A DNA stretch of 64,000 nt from positions 62,001 through 126,000 of the forward strand of contig JBDWKL010000046.1 of the NCBI GenBank assembly GCA_039973685.1, read 5' to 3'. Below are positions 45,434 through 54,314 of the stretch, in pieces. Below the pieces are notes generated by a model. The model ran no database searches. It was not told where the DNA came from and saw only the letters and a list, made by a program, of their open reading frames with translations. Origin of the DNA: Hyphomicrobiales bacterium (lineage in GTDB: Bacteria > Pseudomonadota > Alphaproteobacteria > Rhizobiales > JACESI01). The stretch's first letter is position 1; every line of letters begins with the position of its first letter. A program made the translations under genes and the position numbers.

Positions 45434-47635
45434 ATGAAGCCTTTTGCGAACCATTTCTGCCGTTTTACAGTTATTGCGGGCGCAAGCCTTCTTGGAAGTT
45501 TGAGCGTTTATGGCTCATTTTCTAAAGCCCAAGAACTGATCCCGTTCCCGTCTCCGCGCCCTGCCCATCAGGTGGATCAAGCCGCAACGACGTTGGCAAT
45601 CGCGCCAGCGGCGGCCGCTACCCCTTCAGCCGTTGGTCAACTTATTCCATTCCCTGTCGTTCGCCCGAGCTATATAGGCACGCCGCAAACCACAGTGGCG
45701 CGAACATCCCAGAAGGCTTTGGCAGGCGGCCCATCGACTAAGGGTCATTCTATTGCCCCCTTGCGCAGCTTCTTTGCATCGTTCGATAAAAAAGATGGCG
45801 CGGGTGCACTTCGAGCAAAAGCTGCCCTTCGTCATCCGCTCGATAAAAAGATCGCCGCATGGATGATCTCAACCACATCCACACGAGGTTTTTCTCATTC
45901 GACCTTGCTTAAGAATAGCCAAGAGGTGAATAATTGGCCTGGTGGTGCGGCTATGCGGTTGGCACGAGAAAACACGCTGGTTAAGCGCGCAAAGCCTGCG
46001 GCATGGGTCGCGCGTTCTCTGCCACAAGAACCTTCCACCGATGATGGGAAGATGCTCCAAATCAAATCACTGCTTGCAAGTGGTGATAGAAGCCGAGCAA
46101 CAAGCAACCTACGTAAGTATTGGGTCAATCAGAATTTCAGCCGCTCGCTTGAGGCGCGCATCTTAAAATCATACGGCAATCTATTGTCTCGTCGCGACCA
46201 TGAAGCCCGTGCAAGCCGTTTGCTTTATGATGAGCGTGCGAATGCTGCCCTTCGTCTTGCACCAAAAGTTTCACGCAGCAACCGCGCGTTGATGAATGCG
46301 CGAATCGCAGTGATCAGACGACAAAAAAATGCAGGCAGCCTACTTGCGAACCTTCCTGCTTCTGCCAAATCTGATCCAGCCTACTTCTTCGCTCGCGTCC
46401 AACATTTGCGTCGTGCAGATAATTGGGTGTCAGCGGGTAAAGTCATGGTCCAAGCACCACGCGATCCATCTCGCCTCGTAGATTTACGTGAATGGTGGAT
46501 TGAACGCCGCATTGTGTCGCGCAAAGTGTTAGAAGCAGGTCACCCTCGCCTTGCTTATCAAATCGTCTCGCAATTTTCGACAGATCGCGCGGTTGATCGT
46601 ATCGACGCGCAATTCCATGCCGGATGGTACGCGCTTCGCTTTGCAAAAGACCCGAAAACCGCTCTTCGTCATTTCATTAAAATTCGCGAAATTTCAGACA
46701 AGCCCCTTTCCCTTTCCCGTGCTCATTACTGGACTGGCCGTGCCCACCAAGCACTGGGTTCAAACGGTCAGTCGAAACAGTCCTATCAGCAAGCGGCGCG
46801 CTATCCACACACCTATTATGGACAGCTCGCCCTTCGTCAGCTTGGTCATAGCTCGATTGCATTAGCACAGCTGCCCAAAACGGCTGCTGCAAAGGCTGGT
46901 TTTGAACGGCACTTGTTTGTGCAAGTCATTCGCCGCCTCGATGAAGCAGGTCAAAAAGGCCGCACAGGCATCTTCTATCGTCATTTAGCGCAAACCCTCA
47001 CCAATCCGGCTGATGTTACTCTATTGGCCGTATTAGCTGATCAAAACCGTCTCTTCCCGATTTCACTGCAAGTCGGCAAGCTGGCGTTATCAAAAGGCGT
47101 CAATGTCCCTCGCCTTGCCTTCCCCCTCGGCGCTATCCCGCGCAAAGCTGGCATCTCGAACCAAGATAAAGCAATGGCCTATGCAATCGCCCGCCAAGAA
47201 AGCGCCTTTAATGTGGGGGCCGTTAGCCATGCAGATGCACGCGGCCTCATGCAGCTTCTTCCGTCAACGGCGAAACTCACAGCGAGAAGGATTGGGGTTG
47301 CTTACCGCCCATCCAAATTGACCCGTGACGGCGCTTACAATGCGAAACTTGGCAGTGCCTTTTTAAATCAACTGATCAAACGTTTTGGCGGGTCTTATAT
47401 TTTGGGTTTTGCTGGATACAACGCAGGTCCGCGCCGGTCTGATGAATGGATCAAACGCTTCGGTGATCCACGTCGCAACGCCGTTGACGCGATTGATTGG
47501 GTCGAGATGATCCCTTTTGCCGAGACGCGTAATTACGTTCAGCGGGTTATGGAAAACTTTCAGGTCTATCGCCACAGATTAGAAAACGCCCCTCTTTCAA
47601 TCAAGAAAGACCTGAACAAAGGCCGCCCAACCTAG
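45434..47635 (+). CDS. Soluble-type lytic transglycosylase
   Basis: A 733-residue periplasmic peptidoglycan lyase. The signal peptide ends near SKA at residue 32. The mature N-terminus has two copies of a short Pro-rich motif, LIPFPSPRP (35-43) and LIPFPVVRP (70-78). A long alpha-helical superhelix (about 130-520) resembles the Slt U-domain. The catalytic SLT domain near the C-terminus has ARQESAFNVGAVSHADARGLMQLLPSTA, with the catalytic Glu, and ILGFAGYNAGPRRSDEWIKRFGDPR. The smpB-dapA-slt arrangement is conserved in rhizobia. It works on glycan strands, complementing the transpeptidases elsewhere in the window. Confidence 0.93.
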   Translation: MKPFANHFCRFTVIAGASLLGSLSVYGSFSKAQELIPFPSPRPAHQVDQAATTLAIAPAAAATPSAVGQLIPFPVVRPSYIGTPQTTVARTSQKALAGGPSTKGHSIAPLRSFFASFDKKDGAGALRAKAALRHPLDKKIAAWMISTTSTRGFSHSTLLKNSQEVNNWPGGAAMRLARENTLVKRAKPAAWVARSLPQEPSTDDGKMLQIKSLLASGDRSRATSNLRKYWVNQNFSRSLEARILKSYGNLLSRRDHEARASRLLYDERANAALRLAPKVSRSNRALMNARIAVIRRQKNAGSLLANLPASAKSDPAYFFARVQHLRRADNWVSAGKVMVQAPRDPSRLVDLREWWIERRIVSRKVLEAGHPRLAYQIVSQFSTDRAVDRIDAQFHAGWYALRFAKDPKTALRHFIKIREISDKPLSLSRAHYWTGRAHQALGSNGQSKQSYQQAARYPHTYYGQLALRQLGHSSIALAQLPKTAAAKAGFERHLFVQVIRRLDEAGQKGRTGIFYRHLAQTLTNPADVTLLAVLADQNRLFPISLQVGKLALSKGVNVPRLAFPLGAIPRKAGISNQDKAMAYAIARQESAFNVGAVSHADARGLMQLLPSTAKLTARRIGVAYRPSKLTRDGAYNAKLGSAFLNQLIKRFGGSYILGFAGYNAGPRRSDEWIKRFGDPRRNAVDAIDWVEMIPFAETRNYVQRVMENFQVYRHRLENAPLSIKKDLNKGRPT

Positions 47636-47729
47636 TTTGAACGTTAAGGTTGGTTGTGGATGCGCTCTTGTCATTGCGGGGCACCTGCCATAAACCAAGG
47701 GTCAAACAATCAATCATCTGGGTGGCGAC

Positions 47730-48632
47730 ATGTCAGCAAATAGGAATGCAGATATTTGGACAGAGTTTTCATGCTCTACATTTGATGGTCTAACCATACG
47801 TGGGCGCGATTATGGGGACCGTTTATCAACAAACACTCCCCTCGTCTGTTTGCCAGGACTAACACGCAGCACACGTGACTTTGATGCGATTGCCCGATTG
47901 ATCAGCCAAGACCCTGAGCAACCACGTCGGGTTTTATCACTCGATTATCGTGGCCGTGGTCAGTCTGACTATGACCCGAATTGGAAAAATTATACGCCAG
48001 CGATCGAAGCAGGCGACGTCTTAAACGCGATCGCTGCAGCGGGTATGCAAGATGTGGTGATCTTTGGAACCTCTCGCGGTGGCATCATCGCCATGCTGCT
48101 CGGCTCTATGCGCCCAGGCATTATGAGTGGGGTTGTCCTCCACGACATCGGACCAACCATCGATATTACTGGCTTGTTGAAGATCAAATCTTATTTGACG
48201 CAAATGCCAACACCGAAAAATTGGCCTGATGCGGCACAAGTATTAAAGACCGTGCATAAAGGTAGTTTTCCAGATTATGGCGAAGATGATTGGCACCAAG
48301 CAGCTCACCTCACCTTTGCGAATAAAGATGGCGAGCCTGTCGTTGATTTTGATCCGGCACTAATAAAGACATTGGCACCAATATCGAGAGATTCTGAATC
48401 GCCAAACCTGTGGCCGCAATTCTTGTCGCTACGTTCTAAACCGTTGCTCGTCATTCGTGGCGGCAATTCTGATCTCTTTAGCGCTGAGACATTAGAAACA
48501 ATGGACCGCGCCCACCCCACCATGAAAAGCGTCACAGTGCCAAACCAAGGCCATGTACCAAGCATAATGGGTGACGAAACCGTCAACGCCATCAAAGAAC
48601 TACTGAAGGAAGCTGACGCTAACGCGCATTAA
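47730..48632 (+). CDS. Alpha/beta-hydrolase
   Basis: A 300-residue hydrolase of the alpha/beta fold. The nucleophile elbow is FGTSRGGIIAMLLG (GxSxG), the oxyanion region is VCLPGLTRSTRDFDAIARLI with RVLSLDYRGRGQSDYDP, and the catalytic His is in NQGHVPSIMGDE; the likely acid is in the GGNSDLFSAETL segment. No signal peptide. The substrate is unknown. GGTGG upstream of the ATG at 47730 supports the start. It lies 94 bp after the lytic transglycosylase and may be read with it. Confidence 0.9.
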   Translation: MSANRNADIWTEFSCSTFDGLTIRGRDYGDRLSTNTPLVCLPGLTRSTRDFDAIARLISQDPEQPRRVLSLDYRGRGQSDYDPNWKNYTPAIEAGDVLNAIAAAGMQDVVIFGTSRGGIIAMLLGSMRPGIMSGVVLHDIGPTIDITGLLKIKSYLTQMPTPKNWPDAAQVLKTVHKGSFPDYGEDDWHQAAHLTFANKDGEPVVDFDPALIKTLAPISRDSESPNLWPQFLSLRSKPLLVIRGGNSDLFSAETLETMDRAHPTMKSVTVPNQGHVPSIMGDETVNAIKELLKEADANAH

Positions 48633-48737: not shown

Positions 48738-49478
48738 TTATTTTTTGCCCTTGGACGAACCAACTTGGCCTTTATCCACGCGCTTTGAAAACTCTGTATC
48801 TTTACCAGCAGCCAAAAGCTTAGCTTGGGAAATCCAGTCTTCACGGTCAATACGACCAGGGAATGCTAGGAATGTACCAACCCAATCAGCTTCTTTTTGT
48901 TTCCAAGCACTGATTTGCGAGAAGTGATAGATGCCGAGACCGTTGAGATTTTTCTCGTTAACCGGACCGATGCCTTTTACACGCTTCAAGTTGTCTTTGC
49001 CGCTACCAAGTGGTGCGCCAAGGACAAGTGGTCTTTTACCCGCAGCATCAGCTTCAGCAGCTTTTGCAGCTTGCGCTTTAGGGATTTTCATCTCTACCGC
49101 AGAAGCTTTGATGTTCGCTTGTGTAGCGCCACCAGTAGGTTTCGCAGCAGCAGGTTTCTTTGCTGCTGGTTTTTTAGCTGCAGGCTTAGGCTTTGCAACT
49201 ACTTTTGGTGCTGGAGCCGCTTTAGCAACAGGCGCCGGTTTTGGCGCTGGCGCTGGCTTTGGTTTTGCGGCAGTCGCTGCAACAGCAGCAACACCAGCCG
49301 CAGCCGCTGCGCCACCAGCAACAGCTGCTGGTCGACCGAAACGGTTATCTTCAGCACGAGCGACATAACGCGGCTCTTCTTTGGCACTGAAGAAACGGCG
49401 GGCAAGACACCCAAGAATGCAACCGATGACATAAGCGAGTGCAATAAGCAGTAGTGAATATAGTACGAGCATTGTCAT
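48738..49478 (-). CDS. Membrane-anchored helix-hairpin-helix protein
   Basis: A 246-residue protein with one N-terminal membrane helix (about 4-27, LVLYSLLLIALAYVIGCILGCLA), a long Ala/Pro/Lys linker (about 55-120), and a C-terminal helix-hairpin-helix domain: NLKRVKGIGPVNEKNLNGLGIYHFSQISAWKQKEADW then GRIDREDWISQAKLLA. The same C-terminal module occurs as an extension of rhizobial NuoE and ribosomal L21 and is otherwise linked to DNA or protein binding. Here it is tethered to the membrane, so its target is unclear. It starts three bases after a 35-residue membrane protein, which itself follows the giant OmpA gene, so the three form one operon. Several KP and AP repeats show mild slippage-prone sequence. 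Confidence 0.85.
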   Translation of the reverse strand: MTMLVLYSLLLIALAYVIGCILGCLARRFFSAKEEPRYVARAEDNRFGRPAAVAGGAAAAAGVAAVAATAAKPKPAPAPKPAPVAKAAPAPKVVAKPKPAAKKPAAKKPAAAKPTGGATQANIKASAVEMKIPKAQAAKAAEADAAGKRPLVLGAPLGSGKDNLKRVKGIGPVNEKNLNGLGIYHFSQISAWKQKEADWVGTFLAFPGRIDREDWISQAKLLAAGKDTEFSKRVDKGQVGSSKGKK

Positions 49479-49481
49479 GGT

Positions 49482-49589
49482 TTATTTCCCCTGGCTTTCT
49501 TTTGGCTTGCATGTAAACCAGCCGACGATCAGTCCAATGACCAATGCGATCAGCAGAAATACCCATAATTGTTGAACTAGATAATCCAT
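49482..49589 (-). CDS. 35-residue single-span membrane protein
   Basis: A small gene on the minus strand: ATG at 49587-49589, TAA at 49482-49484. The protein starts MDYLVQQLWVFLLIALVIGL, continues with a hydrophobic GxxxG-like stretch (IVGW) and ends with a short basic tail, FTCKPKESQGK. The ribosome site GGGGGGA is very strong and overlaps the stop codon of the upstream OmpA gene, and the stop is three bases before the start of the helix-hairpin-helix gene. This spacing in a polycistronic run supports a real gene. Function unknown; a bridging or stabilising role between the two large neighbours is a guess. Confidence 0.75.
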   Translation of the reverse strand: MDYLVQQLWVFLLIALVIGLIVGWFTCKPKESQGK

Positions 49590-49604
49590 TAATCTGTTTC
49601 CCCC

Positions 49605-52600
49605 CTAGTTAGCTTTTATCAGCGAAAATTCAATGCGACGGTTTTTCGCTTTGTTTTCTCTACTGTTGTTTACAACAACTGGGTTCGTTTCTCCATACCC
49701 AACTGCATTTAAGCGATCTGCCGATACACCTGCATTCACAAGATAGTCTACAACAGACTTGGCACGCGCCTCACTCAGACGTTGATTGAAGCTTTCGCTA
49801 CCATCTGAGTCTGTGTGTCCACCAACCTCAAAGCGTGCCTCAGGGCAGCTTATGATCTGAGCAGCAACACCGTCAAGAAGGCCGAAGCTATCAGACAAGA
49901 TGCCTGCTTTCGCTGATTGGAAGAAAATCTTGTTCTTGGCGATTGTCTCCAAAATACCGGCGCTACATGCTACTGGCTCTGGCGTTACAGGTGCTGGTGG
50001 CGGTGTAACTTGCGATAGGATAGCCGTTCCAGTGAAACCTTCAGGCAAACCTTTCTCAAAGCCGTCTTTGATGTCATTCAACGAACCACTAACTGGCACA
50101 ACACCATATAGAGTTGCCGTTGTATCACTGATGGCAAGTGAACCAGTGTTAAGCTGGGCTAGACCTTCAAAGCCTTTCACGGCAGCACCTGAGAAACCAG
50201 CCGGTGCGCCTGCTTCAATAGCCAAGTCAATACTGTTCAAGTCTGAACCAAATTGACGATTAGCACCAGCTGTCATCACAATGCTCGCCTCACGGCTTGG
50301 TGACAACCCAGACACTTTCACGCCATCCTTTTTCGACGCATTCAATGTGAATGGTGAAACAGGGGCTGGCTCTGGCTCAACTGGCGCTGGCGGAGGTGTA
50401 AGTTGCGATAGGATAGCCGTTCCAGTGAAACCTTCAGGCAAACCTTTTTCAAAGCCGTCTTTGATATCATTCAACGATCCACTAACTGGCACAACACCAT
50501 ATAGAGTTGCCGTTGTATCACTGATGGCAAGCGAACCAGTGTTAAGCTGGGCTAGACCTTCAAAGCCTTTGACGGCAGCACCAGAGAAACCAGCCGGTGC
50601 GCCTGCTTCAATAGCCAAGTCAATACTGTTCAAGTCTGAACCAAATTGACGATTAGCACCAGCAGTCATCACAATGCTTGCCTCACGGCTTGGTGAAAAC
50701 CCAGACACGTTCACACCATCCTTTTTCGACGCATTCAATGTGAATGGTGAAACAGGTGTACGATCGATCTCAGCGCTTACAACAGTAAAGCCTTCTGGTG
50801 GGTTTTTAGCATCTGCAGTTGCAATATTATACCCTTCAGATGTGGCCGCCGTTCCATCGATGAAAATGTCTGTATCTTCGATACGTACAGAACCATCTGT
50901 GAAATGAGCAAGCATGTCGTTGCCATATTGAGTAGCACCGACAAAGCCAGCTGGAGCGCCATTTGCAAGTGTTGATGCATCAGTAACGTTCCAGCCTTTT
51001 GAGCCGCCAGCACCTGAGAGGCCGATTTTCACAGCATCCGAAGGCACAGAACCGTTAAACGATACTTCACCACCATTTTTCACCGCTGAGAAGCGATAAG
51101 GTGAGGCAGTTGGTAACGCGATGTTTTTCTCAACAAGCTTATAGCCAGCAGCAATTCTGTCAGCAGACGCGTGAGCGGCTGTATAAGAAGCGGCATCTTT
51201 AGCTACACCATTGATGCTGATATTCTGATCAGAGATTTGAACAGAACCCTCAGAGAAGTTCGATACCATCTTATTTGCAAAGCTTGCAGCATTTACAAAA
51301 CTAGATGGTGCACCAGCATTGATTTCTGTCTGATCGACAACTGTTTCAAAACCAGCACCTTTTGCACTTGAAACAAGTGCGCCTTTAGATGTGTCAGAAG
51401 AAACGTTACCTGTCAGCGTAATCTGCGATGCGTCATCGCCAACTGTGGCACCATAAGTGAATGGCGATACAGGTGTTACTCCAATATTAGTAGAACCAAT
51501 ATTCAAACCAGTCGGCGCAGCATCAAGTGAGCCTACAACAGAGCGTTGGGCCGCTGGTGAAGTGGCTGACCCTTTGAGCGACAATGTATCGCCGAAAGTG
51601 GACAACTCAGCTGTATCAAGGCGATTAAACTGAGCCAAACCAAATGATGTCATAAGGTCGAAGTTTGCCGGTGCATCATCTGCCACTGTCAAATTATCAG
51701 TTACAGAACCATCGGTTAAACTACCCGCTTGAGCAACAACATTAGTACGAGCATCTTCTGATGGAACATTGCCCTCAAGAACAATACCTTCAGCGGATTT
51801 TTGCGCGCCAAAGATATATGGCGAGAATGCTGGGATTGGTGCAGGTGCAGGCGCAGGTTCTGGTACTGCAACGACTTCCGCCGCAGGTGCAGGCTCTGGA
51901 GAAGATAATGCGAGATTACCAACAGCTAGACCAGCAACAACACCAGTTGCAATTTTCGCACGGAATGCGTTTTCGGCATCTCTGTTTGCAAAGTTACCTT
52001 TGAAACGGAAATCATTGCCAGAAATTGAAGCACTACCATTCTCTACTGTGCGTAGTTTTTCGATCGCAAAATTTGCGCCTTCTTGATAGTTGCTAGCAGC
52101 GCCAGAAGCGAAAACCATATTATCCGTTACAGAACCACCATTTGCGATTTCGCCAGCTTTCGCATTGAGAGCTTCGCGCACTTCGCCATTCGGCACTGAT
52201 CCAGACAATACGATGCCACCAACTGATTTTGACGCATAAAATACATAAGGCGAAGCAGCTGGTCGTTTGATATCAGCGCTACCTAAGCTCAAACCAGCAG
52301 GAAGACTGCCAGACAAAGCTGCATTTACGGCATCGTAAGTTGGGTTATTTTTAGCAACACCAGAAATGTCCAAGCTGCTGTCTGTGATTTTAAATTCACC
52401 TGAAGCAAGCTCTTTGACCTGACCAACGGCGAAACCAATTTGCTCGCCTAGTCCATCAACACTACCACCTGCCGCTTGCAGTTCATTCACAACTGTCGCG
52501 TCAGGCATTGCAGCAACAACGTCTTTTTCAACAACGCCTGTTGCAGTTTCTGAACCGACATAACCAGAGAGCGTAATTGTTGATCCGTCAAATTTGCCAG

Positions 52601-52937
52601 ATGTTACGAAAGGAGACTGGACTGCCAGCTCATCAATTCCGCTACCGTCCACAACCCGAACACCCCAAGTGCCAGCATCACGGTCACGGAACACGCCGTC
52701 AGCGATTTTCAAGGCATCTTGTTTTGCTTCTAAGGAAGGAGCAACACCACTTATGGAAAGATCACGGCCATCAAGTTCTACACTTGCCCAAGGGTGATCT
52801 GAAGAAAGCTTCCCAAGCGCACGCTTGGTCAAGTCAGTTTCAATTGAACCCGCTTTCAAGAACATTGAGATCAAAAGAAGCAAGCCTACGGCTAAAATTC
52901 CTGGCCAAATCCAGGCTGATGGGCGGCATTTCCACAT
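49605..52937 (-). CDS. Very large OmpA-family protein with BON-like repeats
   Basis: A 1110-residue envelope protein. An N-terminal membrane segment (WIWPGILAVGLLLLISMFL, about 9-27) is followed by a BON-like start and seven repeats, each opening with SPF or SPY near residues 107, 228, 372, 488, 612, 729 and 860. Each repeat pairs a GxVxLxGxVPxxxxR half with a GS(V/L)xIxDxxxxxxGxA half. The last two repeats are nearly identical at DNA level with a 393-bp period. The C-terminal OmpA domain (about 1000-1110) has FEVGGHTDSDGSESFNQRLSEARA, which binds peptidoglycan diaminopimelate. Ala/Pro/Glu linkers separate parts. It heads the minus-strand operon with the 35-residue and helix-hairpin-helix genes. 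Confidence 0.9.
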   Translation of the reverse strand: MWKCRPSAWIWPGILAVGLLLLISMFLKAGSIETDLTKRALGKLSSDHPWASVELDGRDLSISGVAPSLEAKQDALKIADGVFRDRDAGTWGVRVVDGSGIDELAVQSPFVTSGKFDGSTITLSGYVGSETATGVVEKDVVAAMPDATVVNELQAAGGSVDGLGEQIGFAVGQVKELASGEFKITDSSLDISGVAKNNPTYDAVNAALSGSLPAGLSLGSADIKRPAASPYVFYASKSVGGIVLSGSVPNGEVREALNAKAGEIANGGSVTDNMVFASGAASNYQEGANFAIEKLRTVENGSASISGNDFRFKGNFANRDAENAFRAKIATGVVAGLAVGNLALSSPEPAPAAEVVAVPEPAPAPAPIPAFSPYIFGAQKSAEGIVLEGNVPSEDARTNVVAQAGSLTDGSVTDNLTVADDAPANFDLMTSFGLAQFNRLDTAELSTFGDTLSLKGSATSPAAQRSVVGSLDAAPTGLNIGSTNIGVTPVSPFTYGATVGDDASQITLTGNVSSDTSKGALVSSAKGAGFETVVDQTEINAGAPSSFVNAASFANKMVSNFSEGSVQISDQNISINGVAKDAASYTAAHASADRIAAGYKLVEKNIALPTASPYRFSAVKNGGEVSFNGSVPSDAVKIGLSGAGGSKGWNVTDASTLANGAPAGFVGATQYGNDMLAHFTDGSVRIEDTDIFIDGTAATSEGYNIATADAKNPPEGFTVVSAEIDRTPVSPFTLNASKKDGVNVSGFSPSREASIVMTAGANRQFGSDLNSIDLAIEAGAPAGFSGAAVKGFEGLAQLNTGSLAISDTTATLYGVVPVSGSLNDIKDGFEKGLPEGFTGTAILSQLTPPPAPVEPEPAPVSPFTLNASKKDGVKVSGLSPSREASIVMTAGANRQFGSDLNSIDLAIEAGAPAGFSGAAVKGFEGLAQLNTGSLAISDTTATLYGVVPVSGSLNDIKDGFEKGLPEGFTGTAILSQVTPPPAPVTPEPVACSAGILETIAKNKIFFQSAKAGILSDSFGLLDGVAAQIISCPEARFEVGGHTDSDGSESFNQRLSEARAKSVVDYLVNAGVSADRLNAVGYGETNPVVVNNSRENKAKNRRIEFSLIKAN
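49984..50769 (-). repeat. 393-bp near-identical tandem duplication in the OmpA gene
   Basis: Positions about 49984-50376 and 50377-50769 align with only scattered substitutions; for example GCCAAGTCAATACTGTTCAA starts at 50221 and again at 50614, a shift of 393 bases or 131 codons. The frame is kept, so both encoded copies are intact. High identity means recent duplication or ongoing gene conversion. Confidence 0.88.
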
Positions 52938-53072: not shown

Positions 53073-54314
53073 CTAAAATTTTCGGCGAATTGATAAATAA
53101 CCGCCGACCTCACCATTATTGTCATTTGCGAAGAAAAATTCATTTCCTGCGCCAAAATTATCGACAGAGTCATAACCAATTTCCGCAAGTATTTCAGTAT
53201 CTTTCCATGCAGACCAAACAATATTGACAGCGCCGTCAATGCCATTTTCATTACGAAACCCTGATTGCGTTGCCGTAACGTAAGAGAAATCAGCGTTCAA
53301 TCTGAGGTTGTGATGAAGACTGTAAGTAACTCCGCCAAATACACTAAAAGCGTCTAATCCGTCGCTAAACGCAAACACGATATCATTGGAGGAACGCAGC
53401 GCGTAGGTCACACCTAAATGAGCGGCCAATAGTGGGTGAACATAGGCTAGTTGGGCGGCGAAACCATAGCCTAATTCAGCATTGTCTTGAAAGGTGAATT
53501 GGCTGCCGTTTCGGACCGCGACGGGCAGCGGGGCACTGGAAATGAAATCATCAACACTCACAGCAGCCAAACCAAATGATGCGCTGAATGCTCCGAACTT
53601 CTTCCTCACACCCAGTCCAAAATTTGGCAAATCAGCCCTAGATCCAGAAACAGTATTGCTTCCATCACTAATCGAACCCACAATATCTATGCCGCCAATG
53701 CGGGTTTGATAACTCAGCCCAAGGGCTGAACGAGCATCCAAGCTTTCAGCTCCTCGCCGCGTAAAGCCATCGGCAATGAACACTGAGCCGGCATTTTCAA
53801 TCTTACCAAGTTTAAATTGCCCTCGGCTATTATCCAGTTTCAATTGGAAAGCATCCAGACCAACGGCAAAATCTCGTTCAACAGCACCAAGGATCAAATC
53901 TTCCGATACACCAGGGTCATACTGCGATTGCAAACGGATAAATGAGGATAACGTGCCAATTTGAGTGCGTTTGAACCACTTAATATCAATGTCACTTCGA
54001 CCCGTATACTGGACAGAAGGAAGTCCGTCGATGACATCTGTTGGATCATTAAAAGCAACCCCACTCTCAATGGCGAAGCTCCATTCGAGACATCCCGCAT
54101 TGAAAGGCACTGCTTTATAACGGCTCCCAGAGAAGTCGCATTCTGATTTGCGGGTGATTGTTGTGTTTGAGGTGGCAGCATTTGCCGTTGTTGAATTTAC
54201 CGTTTCTTGAGAGGCTGCAGAAGCCACACCAAAAGAACTAAATCCTACAAAAAGAAACAAAAAGCTTGTTTTTATAAAATTCCAAAATCTGTAAATAGAC
54301 AACAAAGAACGCAC
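53073..54314 (-). CDS. Porin-like outer-membrane beta-barrel protein
   Basis: A 413-residue secreted protein with signal-like N-terminus (FIKTSFLFLFVGFSSFGVASA) and a mature part built of alternating strands, ending in the phenylalanine of YLSIRRKF, a barrel-assembly signal. The N-terminal KSECDFSGSRYKAVPFNAGCLEWSFAIESGVAF resembles, in a diverged form, the Cys-flanked start of the alphaproteobacterial Porin_2 proteins. The first codon is a GTG and no good ribosome site is seen, so the start is uncertain. It lies 136 bp upstream of the OmpA gene on the same strand. Confidence 0.7.
   Translation of the reverse strand: MRSLLSIYRFWNFIKTSFLFLFVGFSSFGVASAASQETVNSTTANAATSNTTITRKSECDFSGSRYKAVPFNAGCLEWSFAIESGVAFNDPTDVIDGLPSVQYTGRSDIDIKWFKRTQIGTLSSFIRLQSQYDPGVSEDLILGAVERDFAVGLDAFQLKLDNSRGQFKLGKIENAGSVFIADGFTRRGAESLDARSALGLSYQTRIGGIDIVGSISDGSNTVSGSRADLPNFGLGVRKKFGAFSASFGLAAVSVDDFISSAPLPVAVRNGSQFTFQDNAELGYGFAAQLAYVHPLLAAHLGVTYALRSSNDIVFAFSDGLDAFSVFGGVTYSLHHNLRLNADFSYVTATQSGFRNENGIDGAVNIVWSAWKDTEILAEIGYDSVDNFGAGNEFFFANDNNGEVGGYLSIRRKF

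Follow-up and report, generated by a model that had tools for sequence, protein, structure and literature searches.

An ArfA-family operon with a conserved microprotein and a helix-hairpin-helix partner in a Hyphomicrobiales bacterium

The best described relative of the locus reported here is the ArfA/OmpATb protein of Mycobacterium tuberculosis (Rv0899), which combines an N-terminal anchor, a domain with the B-type BON fold and a C-terminal OmpA domain. Its gene stands first in an operon with small membrane proteins, according to one report, which also states that in M. bovis BCG the second of these, Rv0900, a membrane protein of 50 amino acids, regulates OmpATb expression post-transcriptionally (PMC3618439). 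Here, we analyzed a stretch of 64,000 nucleotides from a Hyphomicrobiales bacterium (contig JBDWKL010000046.1, positions 62,001 to 126,000; hereafter the window), which carries on its minus strand an operon of three open reading frames (ORFs) at 52937-49605, 49589-49482 and 49478-48738, encoding proteins of 1110, 35 and 246 amino acids. An earlier note, made from the letters of the window alone, had described three tightly spaced genes sharing one terminator, and this is what we found: the gaps measure 15 bases between the first gene and the microprotein gene and 3 bases between the latter and the third gene, and a strong intrinsic terminator (11 pairs and a following T run; 48713-48688) lies downstream of the trio. 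The same note had seen in the locus its strongest candidate for an undescribed system, a view that is not supported, since the first gene scores above the cut-off of the ArfA/OmpATb family and Rv0899-like proteins are already on record from nitrogen-fixing bacteria (PMC3816664, citing Marassi 2011). We consider it probable that the operon encodes an ArfABC-type inner-membrane complex in which ArfA holds the wall, the microprotein and its helix-hairpin-helix (HHH) partner stabilise it, and the HHH part docks in the cytoplasm.

The product of the first gene matched the NCBIfam profile ArfA_OmpATb_N (NF051434) with 136.2 bits, against a curated cut-off of 81, over seven stretches. Its best match in a sequence search of the PDB was Rv0899 (2L26, E 1.6e-22), and Pfam returned OmpA (E 2.8e-19) and BON. 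These matches place the first gene in the known ArfA/OmpATb (Rv0899) family. Like Rv0899, its product has an N-terminal membrane anchor (about residues 12-30; 52848-52904), predicted by hydropathy only, with the same layout repeated in 31 relatives. Unlike Rv0899, which has one central domain (PMC6151718), it carries seven B-type units, and does so in a Gram-negative alphaproteobacterium. These units, delimited with a hidden Markov model, are about 118-143 amino acids long, all open with SP[FY], and lie in order from the N-terminus at 52263-52616, 51900-52253, 51471-51824, 51114-51467, 50754-51104, 50400-50750 and 50004-50357. The DNA of units 6 and 7 (50004-50750) is 94% identical, suggesting that they arose by a recent tandem duplication within arfA; the number of units is therefore still changing. 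The C-terminal OmpA domain (residues 1005-1100; 49638-49925) is of the peptidoglycan-binding type and finds its closest solved relatives in the Rv0899 chains. Alignment with the Rv0899 C domain shows that the Asp of GHTD and the Arg of LSEAR, which we take to be the peptidoglycan-site residues, are both kept. In the label "giant OmpA" given to this protein before, "giant" holds only in relative terms: family members of the order that have an OmpA domain range from about 470 to 1400 amino acids. No barrel family was among the profile matches of ArfA and no lipobox was seen by eye. An outer-membrane porin reading was considered and not kept.

The fold of the repeats was addressed on unit 5, which was modelled by AlphaFold2 with 56 related units as input. 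The model has a mean predicted local distance difference test (pLDDT) score of 97.1 and contains six strands and three helices, the same count as in the Rv0899 B domain (PMC6151718). Foldseek ranked 2kgs and 2ksm, both Rv0899, at the top, and structural re-alignment gave Z scores of 10.8 for 2kgs, 9.9 for 2l26 and 8.5 for 2ksm, all others being at most 6.3. In the alignment with 2kgs, 114 of 117 residues were covered, with a root-mean-square deviation of 2.8 and 20% identity. The ArfA units are predicted, on this model, to have the Rv0899 B-domain fold.

Some further features of ArfA proteins were noted. In a set made up of the window's protein and its relatives, many have a cysteine among the first few residues, before the span (MWKCRP, MCNWR, MRCKPS). 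In one locus of the same genus (L043, genome G003, minus strand), the gene is split into two overlapping ORFs of 389 and 540 amino acids with 2 and 3 units, a pattern that a frameshift or a fault in the assembly would leave. Three loci (L044, L045 and L060; genomes G107 and G072) encode proteins of 1438-1831 amino acids with 4-11 ArfA-type units, in which an OmpA domain, a microprotein and an HHH partner were not detected.

The second gene (49482-49589) encodes a one-span microprotein. Its ribosome site, with an anti-Shine-Dalgarno duplex of -9.8 kcal/mol vs. -6.4 and -6.5 for the genes on either side, beats those of all 38 first-ATG ORFs of at least 200 amino acids in the window (best -9.3); only 1% of random positions reach -7.6 kcal/mol or better. 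The site, called exceptional from the letters alone, is indeed strong. Conservation of the microprotein in Hyphomicrobiales, proposed at the same time as a check, was also found: a search of 121 genomes from the order detected it in 56, representing 43 of 84 genera (E 1e-3 or better). An alignment of 27 members reads MxYLxxxLWPxLxLAxxxGxxxGW with one glycine invariant, and nonsynonymous divergence (dN) was well below synonymous divergence (dS) in 12 of 12 pairs of relatives. This conservation, including the low dN, supports its translation and indicates that the microprotein is real. A class-wide search found it in 8 of 289 genomes, the window's own among them, and the matches outside the order adjoin OmpA genes.

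The trio as a whole recurs as well. Starting from loci selected by ArfA family matches, and counting loci rather than independent genomes (some genomes came in twice through two collections, as L097 and L108 or L057 and L133), 43 had an OmpA domain together with units; 38 of these had the microprotein directly after arfA, as ArfB is placed, and 34 of the 38 had the HHH protein. Among 17 further loci outside that set, reached from the microprotein, an OmpA gene lay directly upstream in 12, all of which had the HHH gene. The median gap between ArfA gene and microprotein was 14 nucleotides over 88 loci with microprotein. The earlier note held that its proposal would fall if the genes did not co-occur in other genomes; they do, in the same order within Hyphomicrobiales, and its three co-directional genes are a real, conserved unit. 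Moreover, among 84 complete loci, 31 encode microprotein and HHH protein as one fused chain, for example in Bosea, Methylocapsa and Mesorhizobium, and these natural fusions indicate that genes 2 and 3 act together. Gene order, conservation and fusions, together with the predicted unit fold, are what the analysis shows for the operon.

The third product, at the ArfC position (48738-49478), consists of an N-terminal span, a disordered Ala/Pro/Lys linker and a C-terminal HHH module (residues 158-240; 48759-49007). In the AlphaFold2 model, confidence is high for a helix at residues 2-31 and for a helical domain at about 160-240, in keeping with its initial description as a membrane-tethered HHH protein. 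A Foldseek search with the complete 246-residue model returned nothing at E <= 0.001, as expected with a disordered linker. The GxG helix-hairpin-helix motif was matched by IMS_HHH in 14 of 17 members, below the gathering scores. The same module ends NuoE, ribosomal proteins L21 and S2, and phasin as C-terminal extensions, there on soluble or complex-bound proteins that have no such N-terminal span, and three further copies are present in the window's own genome. Another carrier is protein-O of the RC-LH1 (reaction centre-light-harvesting 1) complex of Dinoroseobacter shibae (PDB 8yy9; E 1.1e-44 for the module), which likewise joins a membrane N-terminus to this module through a flexible linker (PMC12079452). 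Unlike the third protein with its one helix, protein-O has two N-terminal helices and serves in a photosynthetic complex, with no ArfA gene involved. The protein-O paper (PMC12079452) describes the function of this widespread module as unknown, and the trio offers it a clean gene context.

Two lines of evidence bear on topology. The first is the positive-inside rule: of 27 microproteins, 23 have more Lys+Arg on the C side than on the N side and 4 are ties, and among the HHH proteins the C side is richer in 15 of 17. In addition, seven fusion-type proteins inspected in full (three with the HHH end, four without) have an extra span between both parts, as seen by eye. A fusion with one extra span keeps the HHH end on the same side, which, with the counts, argues that the separate microprotein and HHH protein are both N-out/C-in. 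The HHH module, left as cytoplasmic or periplasmic in the earlier note, would then most likely be in the cytoplasm. As for the reach of the system, the hydrophobic anchor, the BON units and the peptidoglycan-type OmpA domain, with no barrel or lipobox seen, indicate a link from the inner membrane to the wall. In the bridge of inner membrane, wall and outer membrane first envisaged, the outer-membrane end is not supported; no such part was found.

In the complex that we favor, the N-terminal span of ArfA would sit in the inner membrane, its seven BON units would cross the periplasm as a string, and its OmpA domain would grip peptidoglycan. The microprotein and the ArfC-position protein would form a single-span pair, most likely assembling or stabilising ArfA in the membrane, while the HHH module would hang in the cytoplasm on its flexible linker and dock the complex to a cytoplasmic partner. 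A stabilising role is proposed for the small proteins by analogy, because Rv0900 regulates OmpATb; this role, like the physical complex and its topology, is what we infer for the trio. Any part played in acid or envelope stress is suggested by analogy only.

Several observations weigh against this assignment. The window's microprotein scored 14.4 bits against ArfB (NF051435), under the cut-off of 40, and over the 27 microproteins ArfB_Rv0900 was the family most matched, but weakly (5 of 27, best E 2.8e-4). For the window's third protein, matches were listed to an E of 10 without ArfC_N (NF051455) among them, nor was this profile one of the 25 families listed across 17 relative HHH proteins; unlike ArfC, moreover, this protein has an HHH module at its end and is often fused to the microprotein. 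Lys+Arg counts flanking the ArfA span are not decisive. Lastly, one genome of the same genus (G001) is without ArfA and without the microprotein, so the system is dispensable. Genes 2 and 3 share with ArfB (Rv0900) and ArfC (Rv0901) their operon position and size class, with a one-span small protein second, and we regard them as positional counterparts rather than filing them as members. What may be new here is the alphaproteobacterial accessory pair, with its HHH tail and its fusions; no description of the alphaproteobacterial microprotein, the HHH partner or the fusions was found in a literature search that did not cover most subscription papers. The ArfA operon, known mainly from mycobacteria, would be extended to Gram-negative bacteria together with a conserved and probably translated microprotein. 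Since natural fusions predict protein contacts and membrane side, the role of ArfB and ArfC becomes testable in tractable laboratory alphaproteobacteria.

The fold of the units also invites another explanation, in which ArfA is a stress-protective periplasmic spacer or a membrane binder (BON domains, such as that of DolP, bind phospholipid) and fastens the wall to either the inner or the outer membrane, while the small proteins serve a purpose of their own and are merely co-transcribed. In its favor are the BON-type fold of each unit and the lower-ranking structural matches to DolP, BonA and OsmY, which share this building block and are periplasmic like the ArfA units; in a Rhizobium, BON proteins are reported to respond to aluminium with strong induction (PMC8909678). 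These proteins, however, match unit 5 much more weakly than the Rv0899 B domain does (Z 5.9 for BonA, 5.1 for OsmY and 4.6 for DolP, vs. 10.8), and co-transcription alone sits poorly with an order of A, B and C kept over many families and with genes 2 and 3 fusing repeatedly right behind ArfA. We therefore regard this explanation as unlikely.

Family membership and the NCBIfam name of the first gene might instead suggest a channel or an ammonia-release device active in acid adaptation, as named for ArfABC of M. tuberculosis, where the ompATb operon accelerates the secretion of ammonia at low pH according to two papers (PMC3816664, PMC3728290). The first of these nevertheless records a dispute over whether Rv0899 itself acts as a porin (PMC3816664); the accessory proteins are not established orthologues, and nothing examined in this genome indicates ammonia. 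Such a device has a rather small chance of being what the trio encodes. Smaller again is the chance that ArfA reads or holds peptidoglycan while the microprotein/HHH pair relays its state across the inner membrane to a shared docking tag. If true, this wall-to-cytoplasm linkage would couple wall attachment to cytoplasmic machines through a tag that alphaproteobacteria also carry on complex I, the reaction centre and ribosomal proteins. That the three genes are a chance neighbourhood, with the microprotein ORF as noise and an HHH protein unrelated to ArfA, is hardly credible. Short ORFs of hydrophobic sequence are admittedly frequent, and the HHH module is also carried by proteins of unrelated kinds. 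Against chance stand the strong conservation, a dN lower than dS, the recurrent adjacency of the genes and the fusions, and a chance-ORF reading of the microprotein was dropped as contradicted by the dN/dS comparison, its presence in 56 of 121 genomes and the linkage counts.

Two plus-strand genes, frequent neighbors that we do not claim as members, converge on the trio from 45434-48632: one for a lytic-transglycosylase-like protein (45434-47635), near the trio in 43 of 84 complete loci, and one for an alpha/beta-hydrolase (47730-48632), in 47 of 84. A functional tie via peptidoglycan is possible. In 32 of the 84 loci the stretch fetched contained neither gene, yet the trio stays together there; it is therefore more than a passenger of a conserved region. 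Upstream of the trio, a 413-residue protein (53073-54314, minus strand) has a weak Porin_2 match (E 0.019) and, among the loci compared, was present only in L043, of the same genus. In a tblastn search of plasmids with the Rv0899 C domain, no actinobacterium was among the matches listed. Finally, three gammaproteobacterial loci (L136, L158 and L168) and one in a metagenome-assembled genome labelled Campylobacterota (L157) have a gene for an OmpA-domain protein of ~350 amino acids followed by one for a one-span HHH protein of ~160-170 amino acids, and these gene pairs are perhaps a simpler form of the ArfA-trio system.

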